64,000 bases of DNA from Hydrogenophaga sp. NFH-34 (GTDB lineage Bacteria; Pseudomonadota; Gammaproteobacteria; Burkholderiales; Burkholderiaceae_C): assembly GCF_021401345.1 (NCBI RefSeq), contig NZ_JACBGE010000016.1, positions 62,001-126,000 of the forward strand, written 5' to 3'. The translations under genes and the position numbers were made by a program. Within the stretch, counting starts at the first letter, position 1. Every line of letters starts with the position of its first letter. Below are positions 41,273-45,686 of this stretch, piece by piece. The notes beneath the pieces were generated by a model. The model saw nothing but the letters and a program-made list of their open reading frames with translations. It made no database searches and was not told where the DNA came from.

Positions 41273-42814
41273 CTACCCTTGCGCGGCGACGCGCTCGGCT
41301 TTGCTCTGCAGCTTGTTGAGCGCGCTCAGGTAAGCCTTGGCGGACGCCACCACGATGTCCGGGTCGGCCCCCACGCCGTTGACCACCCGACCGCTGTGCT
41401 GCAGGCGCACGGTCACCTCGCCCTGGCTTTCAGTCGAGCCACTGGTGATGGCATTGACCGAATACAGCACCAACTCGGCCCCACTCTGGACATGGCTTTC
41501 GATCGCCTTGAGCGATGCATCGACGGGTCCGTTGCCATCCGCTTCGCCACGCAGTTCCTGCCCCCCATCGGTGAAGACCACGACCGCATGCGGTCGCTCG
41601 CCGGTTTCGCTGTGTTGGGCCAGCGAAACCAGGCCGTACTGCTCCCGCTCAGCGGTGACGCTCTCGTCGCTGCACAAAGCCAGGATGTCCTCGTCGAAGA
41701 TCTCTGCCTTGCGGTCGGCCAGTTCCTTGAACTTGGCGAACGCGGTGTTGATCTCGCTTTCCGACTCCATCTCGATGCCCAGATCCTGCAGGCGCTGCTT
41801 GAAGGCATTGCGGCCGCTGAGCTTGCCCAGCACGATCTTGTTGGCGCTCCAGCCCACGTCCTCGGCGCGCATGATCTCGTAGGTGTCACGTGCCTTGAGC
41901 ACGCCGTCCTGGTGGATGCCCGAAGCGTGCGCGAAGGCGTTCGCGCCGACCACAGCCTTGTTCGGCTGCACCACGAAGCCCGTTGTCTGGCTGACCATGC
42001 GGCTGGCGGGCACGATCTGCGACGTGTCAATGCCCACGTCGAGGTTGAAGTAGTCTCGGCGGGTCTTGATGGCCATCACCACCTCTTCCAGCGAGCAGTT
42101 GCCGGCGCGTTCGCCCAGGCCGTTGATGGTGCATTCCACCTGGCGTGCGCCGCCAATCTTCACGCCGGCCAGCGAATTGGCCACCGCCATGCCCAGGTCG
42201 TTGTGGCAATGCACCGACCAGATGGCCTTGTCGGAATTGGGAATGCGCTCGCGCAGCGTCTGGATGAAGTTGCCGTACAACTCGGGAATCGCATAACCCA
42301 CGGTGTCCGGAATGTTCAGTGTGGTCGCGCCTTCGTTGATCACGGCTTCGAGCACGCGGCAGAGGAAGTCCACATCGCTGCGATAGCCGTCTTCCGGACT
42401 GAACTCGATGTCGTCCACGAGGTTGCGGGCAAAACGCACCGACTGCTTGGCCTGCTCGAACACCTGGTCGGGCGTCATGCGCAGCTTCTTCTCCATGTGC
42501 AACGGGCTGGTCGCAATGAAGGTGTGGATGCGCGCACGCTGGGCGCCCTTGAGCGCCTCGGCAGCCCGCGCGATGTCGCGGTCATTGGCCCGCGCCAGCG
42601 AGCACACGGTCGAATCCTTGATGGTGTTGGCAATCGCCTGCACGCAGTCGAAGTCACCGTTCGAGCTGGCCGCAAAGCCGGCCTCGATCACATCCACCTT
42701 CAGCCGTTCGAGCTGGCGGGCGATGCGCAGCTTCTCGTCCTTGGTCATGGACGCGCCGGGCGACTGCTCGCCATCGCGCAAGGTGGTGTCGAAAATGATC
42801 AGCTTGTCGGTCAT
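41273..42814 (-). CDS. leuA: 2-Isopropylmalate synthase, type I
   Basis: First committed step of leucine synthesis: acetyl-CoA plus 2-ketoisovalerate. 513 aa. TIM barrel starts [20 protein letters not shown]; metal-binding HxH in [39 protein letters not shown]; regulatory C-terminal domain from about 390. It lies 20 bp after a type II synthase gene, so both isozymes are in one transcript behind a leucine attenuator. Such tandem pairs are unusual; the two may differ in feedback sensitivity. Confidence 0.95.
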
Positions 42815-42834
42815 CGGGTCTCTCCTTATGGGTA

Positions 42835-44544
42835 TCAGGCCGCCACGGCGACCGGCTCGGGTTGGGATTGTGCCTGCTCCGGTGAACGGTCCGCCACACG
42901 CGCCAGGCCGGAAACCACCGCGGCCAGCGCCGCGGCCGTGGTGTCGGCGTCGACACCGACGCCAAACAGCGTGCGGGAGTCGTCCACCCGCATCTCGACA
43001 TACGCCACCGAACGGGCATCGGCGCCAGCGCCCATGGCGTGCTGGTGGTAATCGACCACGCGAATGGCATGGCCACAGACCTCGCCCAGGGCGCGGCTGA
43101 ATGCATCGATCGGCCCGGTCCCTCGCCCGCGAATGGCGTGCGCTTCACCGCGCCAGCGCAGCTCGCCGTGCAGCACCGTCACGGCGTCACTGCCACTGCC
43201 CTGCACTTCCTGCACCCGATGCTGGAGGCCGTCTTCCGTGTCAAGGCGGTATTCGTCGCGGAATATTTGCCAGAGATCGGTCGCGCTGAGCTCCTTGCCC
43301 TGCACGTCCATCACCCGCTGCACGATCTGGCTGAACTCGATCTGCAGGCGCCGTGGCAAAGCCAACCCGTATTCGCTTTCGAGCAGGTAGGCCATGCCAC
43401 CCTTGCCCGACTGGCTGTTCACCCGGATCACAGCTTCGTAGCTGCGACCCAAATCCTTCGGATCGATGGGCAGGTACGGGATCTCCCAGATGTCGCCGGC
43501 CTCGTGAGCGGCGAACGCCTTCCGGATGGCATCCTGGTGGGAGCCTGAGAAGGAGGTGTAGACCAGATCACCCACGTAAGGATGGCGCGGGTGCACAGGG
43601 AGCTGGTTGCAGTGTTCAACCGTGGCACGGATCTCGTCGATGTTCGAGAAATCCAACCCTGGCGAAACACCTTGCGTATAGAGATTCAGCGCGACGTTGA
43701 CGATGTCGAGGTTGCCGGTGCGCTCACCGTTGCCGAAGAGGCAACCTTCCACGCGGTGCGCGCCAGCCATGAGCGACAGTTCGGCCGCGGCCGTGCCGGT
43801 GCCACGGTCGTTGTGCGGGTGCACCGAGAGCACCACGCCCGGCCGCTGACCGAAACGCCGGCTCATCCATTCAATCTGGTCAGCGAACACATTGGGGGTG
43901 GCGTTCTCCACCGTGGTCGGCAGATTGAGGATGATGGTGCGTCCCTCGCCCCAGGCGGCGATCGCGGTTTCGCAAGCCTGGGCCGACACCTCCAGCTCCG
44001 CCAGGCTGAAAGTCTCGGGCGAGTACTGCAGCGTCCATTCGGTCTGCGGCGCGGCGTCGGTCAGGCGCCGCACCTGGGTCACGCTGCGCGCCACCAGTTC
44101 CATCACCTGTGGCACCGTCATCCCGAAAACCACCTCGCGCCAGGCCGGTGCCACCGCGTTGTACACGTGCACGATGGCGCGCGGTGCCCCGCGCAGAGCT
44201 TCGATGGTGCGCGCGATCAGCTCCTCGCGAGCGGGCGTCATGACCTGGATCGTCACGTCATCGGGAATGCGCTTCTCGTCGATCAGCTTGCGCAGGAAGT
44301 CGTATTCGATCTGCGAAGCGGCCGGAAACCCGACCTCGATCTGTTTGAAGCCGATGGACAGAAGCAGCTCGAACATGCGCAGCTTGCGCGCCGCGTCCAT
44401 CGGCTCCACCAGCGCCTGGTTGCCGTCACGCAGATCGGTGGACAACCAGATCGGCGCCTCGGTCAGCACGGCATCCGGCCAGGTGCGGTCCTGGAGACCG
44501 ATGGGGGCGAAGGGACGGTATTTGGTGGCAGGCTGCTTGAGCAT
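42835..44544 (-). CDS. leuA: 2-Isopropylmalate synthase, type II
   Basis: 569 aa of the long LeuA2 form. [20 protein letters not shown], then [18 protein letters not shown], metal site [37 protein letters not shown], and the LeuA dimer/regulatory domain ([40 protein letters not shown]). ATG at 44542-44544. Preceded by the LeuL leader and terminator (44592-44711), so expression should respond to Leu-tRNA. The open frame upstream includes the leader region in another frame and is not coding. Confidence 0.94.
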
Positions 44545-44591
44545 GGTGCGGGTCTTCCAAGGTGGAGGGAAAGCGACCAGCAACCTGCATA

Positions 44592-44631
44592 CAAAAAAGA
44601 AAACGGCCCGTTGCTGGAGGCATACGGGCCG
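44592..44631 (-). terminator. Leucine attenuator terminator
   Basis: Stem CGGCCCGT/ACGGGCCG (8 bp, perfect) with a 12-nt loop, then TTTTCTTTTTTGT on the minus strand. It stands between the leader peptide and leuA. Segment ACGGGC inside the leader codons (44669-44674) equals the 3' arm, so it can instead pair with the 5' arm as an antiterminator. Confidence 0.88.
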
Positions 44632-44657
44632 ATCGGGTAGAGAAAAACTGACGCGCG

Positions 44658-44711
44658 CTACCTTACCTGCCCGTGGGACAACAGTAGTAGAGCTAGCGAC
44701 AGGTTTTGCAT
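44658..44711 (-). CDS. leuL: Leucine leader peptide LeuL (17 aa)
   Basis: MQNLSLALLLLSHGQVR, six Leu in 17 residues, with three rare CTA codons (and CTG, TTG) in a run. Stalling at these codons when Leu-tRNA is scarce would free the ACGGGC segment in codons 13-15 to block the terminator. An extended -10 (TGCTACATT, 44719-44727) ends only 7 nt before ATG 44709-44711. No Shine-Dalgarno sequence is seen, so the leader mRNA may be nearly leaderless. Confidence 0.85.
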   Translation of the reverse strand: MQNLSLALLLLSHGQVR

Positions 44712-44749
44712 GGCGATCAATGTAGCACAGATTGCGCGCGATGGTGCAC

Positions 44750-45562
44750 TCAGTCGTGCAGCCCACGCTCGTCCGGTTCGTCGGTCGAGGTGCTGATGAC
44801 GCTGGTGGGCCGGCCCTTGGCCTTGCGCCAGCCATAGACGGCGTAACCGGAAAGGCCATAAAAGATGAACAGGCCAAACAGCACGGTGGGCGGATGGATG
44901 TTGATCACCGCAATGCCCAGGGCCACCAGCACGATGGCGGCAAACGGCACGCTCTTTTTGATGCTCAGGTCCTTGAAGCTGTAGAACGGCACGTTGGTCA
45001 CCATGGTCAGGCCCGCAAACAGCGTCAGGCAGAACATGATCCAGGTGACTTCGTTGGCCGGCACCTCGGTATCGGTCATCAGCCAGATGAAACCGGCCAC
45101 CAACGCTGCAGCAGCTGGCGATGGCAGCCCCTGAAACCAGCGTTTGTCCACGACACCGGTGTTGACGTTGAAACGCGCCAGCCGCAAAGCCGCGCAGGCG
45201 CAGTAGACAAAGGCAGCGATCCAGCCCCAGCGACCCAGGTCGCGCAGGGTCCACTCGTAGGCGATGAGGGCGGGCGCAGCGCCGAAAGACACCATGTCAG
45301 CCAGCGAATCCATCTGTTCGCCAAAGGCGCTCTGCGTGTGCGTCATGCGCGCCACACGGCCGTCAAGGCTGTCGAGTACCATGGCCACAAAGATGCCCGT
45401 GGTCGCGAGATCGTAGCGCCCGTTCATGGCCATGACCACCGCATAGAAGCCGCCGAACAGCGCTGCCAGCGTGATCATGTTGGGCAGCATGTAGATGCCC
45501 TTTTTGGGTCGACGGGGAGCGTCGACCGCAGAGTCGTGTTGAGGATCGGTTCCGTCGTGCAT
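44750..45562 (-). CDS. pssA: CDP-diacylglycerol-serine O-phosphatidyltransferase
   Basis: Makes phosphatidylserine, the precursor of phosphatidylethanolamine. 270 aa, membrane protein. The CDP-alcohol phosphotransferase motif is complete: DSLDGRVARMTHTQSAFGEQ followed by MDSLADM (D-x2-DG-x2-AR-x8-G-x3-D-x3-D). N terminus acidic (MHDGTDPQHDSAVDAPRRPK). ATG at 45560-45562, 124 bp after ilvC and 38 bp before the leucine leader. Its place within the BCAA cluster is common in betaproteobacteria. Confidence 0.95.
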   Translation of the reverse strand: MHDGTDPQHDSAVDAPRRPKKGIYMLPNMITLAALFGGFYAVVMAMNGRYDLATTGIFVAMVLDSLDGRVARMTHTQSAFGEQMDSLADMVSFGAAPALIAYEWTLRDLGRWGWIAAFVYCACAALRLARFNVNTGVVDKRWFQGLPSPAAAALVAGFIWLMTDTEVPANEVTWIMFCLTLFAGLTMVTNVPFYSFKDLSIKKSVPFAAIVLVALGIAVINIHPPTVLFGLFIFYGLSGYAVYGWRKAKGRPTSVISTSTDEPDERGLHD

Positions 45563-45686
45563 GAAGTTCTCGCCGCCTGCGTGACAGACATGGGCCCGCA
45601 CGCGCAGCTCGCCAGTGTAAGCCACCGGACAGGCCCGAAAATGGCCAAGGCCACCGAAGTGGCCTTGGCTCAGGGTATCGCCGGGA

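Follow-up and report, generated by a model that had tools for sequence, protein, structure and literature searches.

The DNA upstream of leuA in Hydrogenophaga sp. NFH-34 carries what we interpret as a ribosome-mediated, leucine-responsive transcription attenuator of the leuA operon, with a leader peptide that would be read from a leaderless transcript (5' UTR of 0-2 nt). We put the probability of this reading at about 85%. The element lies on the minus strand of the window, i.e. the whole stretch of 64,000 nucleotides that was analyzed (Table 1). The original prediction, made from the sequence alone, had described an ORF of 17 codons that include six for Leu (three CTA), an extended -10 ending 7 nt from the ATG, an 8-bp stem followed by a T run, and a copy of the 3' arm of that stem (ACGGGC) in codons 13-15. 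All of these are present on the minus strand, although the range given there for the element extends one base past the T run, to G44592. A helix beyond the T run, which we call H5, was not among the features named there.

Table 1. Features of the leuA leader region and neighboring genes (window coordinates)
Feature	Position	Strand	Detail or basis
leuL leader ORF, MQNLSLALLLLSHGQVR, stop TAG	44658..44711	-	17 codons
Extended -10 TGCTACATT	44719..44727	-	hexamer TACATT at 44724-44719
Predicted transcription start, 0-2 nt before leader A(UG)	44711..44713	-	inferred from -10 position
Region 2 core ACGGGC, codons 13-15, antiterminator 5' strand	44669..44674	-	copy of terminator 3' arm
Antiterminator hairpin ACGGGC:GCCCGT + GGTAG (44662-44658, includes stop codon):CTACC (44640-44636)	44624..44674	-	folding
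Intrinsic terminator, 8-bp stem CGGCCCGT/ACGGGCCG, 12-nt loop	44604..44631	-	arms 44631-44624 / 44611-44604
T-rich tract TTTTCTTTTTT after terminator	44593..44603	-	sequence
H5 5' strand CCAGCAAC (CCAGCA of terminator loop + first two nt of 3' arm, AC)	44610..44617	-	complementarity
H5 3' strand GTTGCTGG, past T run, 32 nt 5' of leuA ATG	44577..44584	-	complementarity
leuA (regulated gene), 569 aa, 2-isopropylmalate synthase, PRK03739 / leuA_yeast type	42835..44544	-	PRK03739, 825.9 bits
Second leuA, 513 aa, leuA_bact type	41273..42814	-	704.5 bits
pssA, upstream gene	44750..45625	-	stop codon ends 38 nt before leader ATG

Leader ORF, gene order and relatives

The leader reads ATG CAA AAC CTG TCG CTA GCT CTA CTA CTG TTG TCC CAC GGG CAG GTA AGG TAG, with its Leu codons at positions 4, 6, 8, 9, 10 and 11 (CTG CTA CTA CTA CTG TTG). 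To judge how unusual this is, we collected all ATG ORFs of 10-40 codons on both strands of the window, counting each ATG; only leuL had three or more CTA codons (1/508). In 141 related leaders, 387 of 738 Leu codons were CTA (52%), against 8 of 1,525 (0.5%) in 39 long ORFs of the window. For E. coli, theory set out in part of PMC1183508 names CUA as the most suitable leucine control codon. Directly 5' of the biosynthetic gene there is thus a small leader ORF in which codons for the pathway's own amino acid follow one another, as attenuators of this class have it.

The genes 5' of the leader (ilvB, ilvH, ilvC and pssA) share the orientation of leuA, and the stop codon of pssA ends 38 nt ahead of the leader ATG. 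On the other side, a gap of 20 nt separates the first leuA from the second, and the pair is probably on one transcript. Two leuA types, of 569 and 513 aa and with 31% identity, are therefore found in tandem behind one attenuator at 41273-44544 on the minus strand.

To compare this locus with its relatives, we searched 200 family genomes for LeuA, of which 194 gave some match, as well as named genomes (best 80 loci), and worked with a set of 170 loci that includes 60 further upstream stretches fetched by place. Leaders were picked on Leu and CTA content alone, blind to the promoter. A Leu-rich leader was found in 149 of these 170 leuA loci; with 21 loci lacking a candidate and 8 duplicates dropped (L001 duplicates L002), 141 distinct loci remained, a few of their leaders being doubtful (e.g., L158, L166, L167 and L169). 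Comamonadaceae-type leaders follow the consensus MNxISLALLLSPxGRRR or MQNLSLALLLxSHGQxx, and those of another clade have the C-terminal end LLLGxPRVR. Common to the relatives' leaders are the Leu run, the CTA codons, the ORF length, the stop position and ACGGGC. Conservation of the Leu run and the stems in relatives was one of the points on which the original prediction had staked itself, and both are conserved.

We also searched with a covariance model of the element, which found one copy in its own genome and matches in at least 12 of 300 genomes of the order and at least 12 of 398 of the phylum; both counts include the own genome, the two sets partly share genomes, and the strict filters used make the counts lower bounds. 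The phylum search included a match in G622 (E value 2.2e-4). For a weak match in another family (L183, E value 2e-4), reading of the sequence showed no leader ORF, and we discounted it as chance. In three genomes of another family of the order (G208, G339 and G491), the element also lies 5' of leuA, with a -10 near the ATG by reading. In one genome of the window's own genus without a match to the long leuA (G114), the element precedes the other leuA type. Among 20 picked genomes with only this second type, leader and terminator were present in 20 and the -10 was in place in 17.

Two other kinds of Leu-rich leader were seen in the same material. The first is a second leader family, roughly 24-34 aa long and as a rule carrying LSLxLVxGRGLxA close to the C-terminus, at leuA paralogue loci in Acidovorax, Paracidovorax, Cupriavidus and relatives (among L075-L100 and L152-L161, though not all loci in these ranges). 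These leaders also have an extended -10 a few nt before the ATG, and mostly either no terminator by script or none of the GGCCCG type. The other was seen at six Cupriavidus/Ralstonia loci (L063, L065, L072, L074, L076 and L078), where an ORF ending SSLLLxLPIGCRA lies 5' of leuA and no ATG-started candidate was found; this may be a third kind of Leu leader, one that starts with GTG or TTG.

Terminator, antiterminator and helix H5

An intrinsic terminator lies between the leader ORF and the structural gene, as is usual for attenuators. Our script recovered it in 110 of the 141 loci and found none in the other 31; in an alignment of 34 hand-picked sequences, 99.3% of its cells were paired. RNA folding gave z = -3.05. 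A generic promoter and terminator scan returned nothing at the element, its loop limit being 8 nt against a loop of 12 nt here, and the -35 being weak.

In the window, the antiterminator hairpin has a predicted energy of -19.8 kcal/mol versus -18.2 kcal/mol for the terminator; over 93 loci the mean order is reversed, with the antiterminator (-17.9) weaker than the terminator (-21.3). To follow the order of transcription, we folded the RNA made before the terminator 3' arm, masking the leader up to a point some 10 nt beyond a Leu codon in the middle of the run to represent a stalled ribosome. The predicted antiterminator, with the 5' arm of the terminator paired to the leader ORF, folded in 90 of 93 loci. 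The attenuation logic that had been proposed from the window alone thus recurs in its relatives: the two predicted hairpins exclude one another, and the antiterminator would be within reach of the RNA while a ribosome is held up at the Leu codons and covered once that ribosome has arrived at the stop codon. In the 34-sequence alignment, 98.5% of antiterminator cells were paired and no pair was changed on both sides. Since antiterminator and terminator cores hardly vary, covariation speaks neither for nor against the antiterminator. In a few leaders (e.g., L139 and L144), the complementarity to the terminator arm is only short by reading. Candidates for a protector (1:2) pairing were TGTCC:GGGCA (84.7% paired cells) and CTAC:GTAG (97.8%, although invariant).

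At equilibrium, the nascent leader of the window favors the terminator state (-41.4 versus -27.1 kcal/mol), and masking by a ribosome to codon 8 or 9 does not remove the terminator from the fold of the complete nascent RNA. Across relatives, the terminator was in the equilibrium fold of 88 of 88 loci, both nascent and read-through. We therefore did not take equilibrium folding as proof of a switch; only the fold in order of transcription yields the antiterminator, so the switch would have to be kinetic, as in other attenuators. If the leader is not translated, the terminator is its predicted default fold, and the ilvBHC-pssA transcript would then end there as well. The stretch at 44624-44711 on the minus strand may in this way double as the terminator of that transcript.

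H5 joins the terminator loop to RNA beyond the T run. RNAalifold, run on the 34 sequences, returned H5 and the antiterminator together, neither having been asked for. We counted H5 pairs in this alignment (A2, which covers the first clade and nearest forms only) and with a per-locus script; a larger alignment of 54 sequences (A1) misplaces H5 in the second clade, and A2 was used instead. In A2, 98.9% of H5 cells were paired, compared with 8-57% in slid registers, and 18 cells were changed on both sides versus 3.9 in shuffles (0 of 500 shuffles as high). Per locus, H5 had at least 7 bp in 86 of 92 GGCYC-type loci, with 46 sequence types; L026 was left out of this count, as the script took H5 itself as the terminator there. 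Helices of at least 7 bp formed in 3,711 of 8,372 combinations with exchanged partners and in 403 of 4,600 with shuffled partners. Ten sequences have G in place of A at alignment column 122 together with a corresponding change in the downstream strand, while the terminator tolerates a G-U pair at this place. The downstream pairing thus appears to be selected in its own right.

H5 is common among the loci compared, though not universal: a loop helix of at least 7 bp was present in 8 of the 20 picked second-type leuA loci. At four further loci (L193, L197, L199 and L204), the helix between loop and downstream RNA is shortened or absent, and the loop of the terminator (caagcatctgcttc or a similar sequence) is instead complementary to itself, as if the pairing had been lost or replaced.

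The arms of H5 form an inverted repeat in DNA, which might be bound by a transcription factor, or H5 might act as a second, back-up terminator. We consider both unlikely. A fixed operator needs neither 46 complementary sequence pairs nor double changes beyond those of shuffles, and we rejected it on the strength of the 46 types. The spacing of the arms also varies, with the 3' strand starting 8-31 nt past the terminator stem and ending 18-47 nt before leuA over 86 loci. A T-rich tail such as a back-up terminator would use (at least five T within 8 nt after H5) occurs in only 11 of 86 loci, and the mean T count there is 2.3, compared with 5.5 after the terminator itself; the second terminator was rejected for this reason.

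We prefer to read H5 as an RNA helix, which may add a further layer of control to the leuA mRNA. Its 3' strand is made only past the termination point, so that in cis it would form only on read-through and would play no part in the termination decision of the same polymerase. When the whole leader of the window was folded with ViennaRNA, which cannot represent pseudoknots, H5 states ranked below the terminator state. H5 is a possible hairpin going with the antiterminator, a possible H-type pseudoknot on the terminator, or a possible target of the terminated RNA in trans. One specific version of such a layer, which we hold only tentatively and think rather doubtful, confines it to read-through transcripts: either H5 refolds the 5' leader of leuA in cis and so sets how stable the mRNA is or how well it is translated, or the loop of the terminated leader RNA seeds pairing in trans with the same site on leuA mRNA, by which transcripts that escape attenuation are repressed.

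Promoter position and the predicted leaderless start

The spacer from TGCTACATT to the leader ATG is 7 nt long (gatcgcc). To determine whether this geometry is conserved, we looked for TGnTAnnnT ending 6-10 nt 5' of the leader ATG and found it at 101 of 141 distinct loci, versus 4 of 446 other ATGs in the same regions. Of all 1,710 ATGs in the window, 2 had the motif at that spacing. At the remaining 40 loci the motif was missing or outside the range, in part because the script took an internal or upstream ATG. The bare hexamer TAnnnT gave 117 matches at offsets 6-10, a few loci being counted twice, and a further 17 at offsets 20-22, mostly at loci where an internal ATG had been taken. Next, we profiled the upstream regions of 129 of the 141 loci, without requiring the letters TGTGC and preferring a TG-bearing hexamer if a locus had several. 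The resulting block, TGTGCTAnAnT, was the sole strongly conserved one within the 45 nt profiled; each of the TGTGC letters ahead of the hexamer was 70-92% conserved, and the -35 signal was weak.

We also searched for Shine-Dalgarno 4-mers (AGGA, GGAG, GAGG or AGGG). These were missing from -18 to -4 of the leader ATG in 137 of 141 loci and present 5' of leuA in 73 of 141. Both the missing Shine-Dalgarno sequence and the nearly leaderless transcript suggested for the window therefore find comparative support. From the conserved position of the -10 and the usual distance from -10 to start, the 5' end would fall at the AUG or 1-2 nt upstream, and leuL would probably be translated from such a leaderless transcript.

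The attenuator could instead be real and its leader translated from a longer transcript that starts in or before pssA, leaving the -10-like motif as a minor promoter or with another role. The short distance to pssA, the common direction of ilvBHC-pssA and the weak -35 are all compatible with this account. Against it stand the one strongly conserved upstream block and the spacing of TGnTAnnnT from the ATG in 101 of 141 loci, and the rarity of Shine-Dalgarno 4-mers means that the longer transcript would be without the usual ribosome site; we regard it as improbable. The suggestion that leuL is a chance ORF next to an ordinary ilvBHC-pssA terminator, which lies directly after pssA, would also end that operon and is favored by equilibrium folding, is ruled out for practical purposes by the conservation of the leader features listed above and by the presence of the element before the other leuA type.

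Under the leaderless attenuator that we favor, RNA polymerase would start at or just before the leader ATG from the extended -10 promoter, as the conserved geometry suggests, and a ribosome would initiate on the 5'-terminal AUG without a Shine-Dalgarno sequence. With ample charged tRNA-Leu, the ribosome would proceed to the stop codon and cover codons 13-17, and the 3:4 terminator given by sequence and folding could form; a ribosome at the stop codon is expected from its footprint size to cover ACGGGC. Under leucine shortage, the ribosome would stall at the rare CTA codons 6, 8 or 9 and leave ACGGGC free. This segment, together with the one that includes the stop codon, could then pair with the 5' arm side of the terminator as the long antiterminator seen in folding, and polymerase would enter the tandem leuA genes. 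In read-through RNA, the terminator loop could pair past the T run as H5, a helix that the covariation shows, as a hairpin that can coexist with the antiterminator or else as a pseudoknot formed with the terminator, and this may influence the stability or translation of leuA mRNA.

Significance and comparison with known attenuators

We searched Rfam at the leader and found that none of 4227 families matched on the leader strand at E values up to 10; the one overlapping match, DnaX, was on the other strand at 14.9 bits, below the cut-off. Searches of three loci at E values up to 1 also gave no match, and a known Rfam leader was accordingly discarded as the identity of the element. In the open-access literature, no description of this element appeared in the titles or abstract beginnings of the matches listed, and no open-access paper was found that joins leaderless, leader peptide, attenuator and Betaproteobacteria. 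A 2004 survey of proteobacterial attenuators may list leu attenuators of Betaproteobacteria. Papers on start sites in B. cenocepacia and C. metallidurans report leaderless mRNAs, and in the accessible portion of their main text we found no leuA, attenuat- or leucine.

Attenuation requires that the first ribosome be closely coupled to RNA polymerase. Were a leaderless leader conserved among Betaproteobacteria, such coupling would be possible from a 5'-terminal AUG that has no Shine-Dalgarno sequence, and Gram-negative hosts could be used to test what leaderless initiation does in attenuation. H5 raises a separate question: why conserve, with compensating changes, a helix formed in cis only past the termination decision? 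If H5 does act as a second layer, its combination with a leaderless leader that a betaproteobacterial family has conserved would amount to a two-stage attenuator, a design that we did not find described.

In the leu operon of Salmonella and E. coli, an antiterminator competes with a terminator upstream of leuA, much as predicted here. The LeuL leader of that system is also short with a Leu run, and has three CUA codons in S. typhimurium, according to part of PMC1183508, which cites the replacement of CUA by CUG by Carter et al. 1986. The window element differs from it in its predicted leaderless start, in the extra helix past the terminator, in an antiterminator strand that lies inside the leader ORF and its stop codon, and in having no Rfam family match.

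The original prediction had called a leaderless leader unusual for an attenuator. Unusual it is, although not without precedent, as Streptomyces (Leu) and Sinorhizobium (Trp) both have known attenuators of this kind. The short Leu leaders leuL1 and leuL2 of Streptomyces lividans, 5' of leuA or leuS, are reported in part of PMC8079986 to be transcribed leaderless, and are in this respect like leuL; LeuL1 lacks a typical terminator, whereas the window element has a full terminator and antiterminator. In Sinorhizobium meliloti, the small RNA rnTrpL starts at the ATG of the trpL leader (parts of PMC7298713 and PMC10117765), which makes trpL a proteobacterial attenuator with a leaderless leader. 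It differs in responding to tryptophan, in regulating trpE(G) and in belonging to Alphaproteobacteria, and its terminated RNA and peptide also act in trans, which for the window element is at most a possibility.

The LEU element of Actinobacteria, as presented in part of PMC1262725, resembles the window element in having an extra pairing of pseudoknot type near leuA. In that element, the Leu codons pair with the Shine-Dalgarno box of leuA. No such pairing was seen by reading in the window, where 44603-44545 contains no TAG and hence no complement to the CTA run; the extra helix here instead joins the terminator loop to RNA past the T run. This conserved loop-to-downstream helix, with its covariation, is what the comparison of sequences suggests to be new in the present element.
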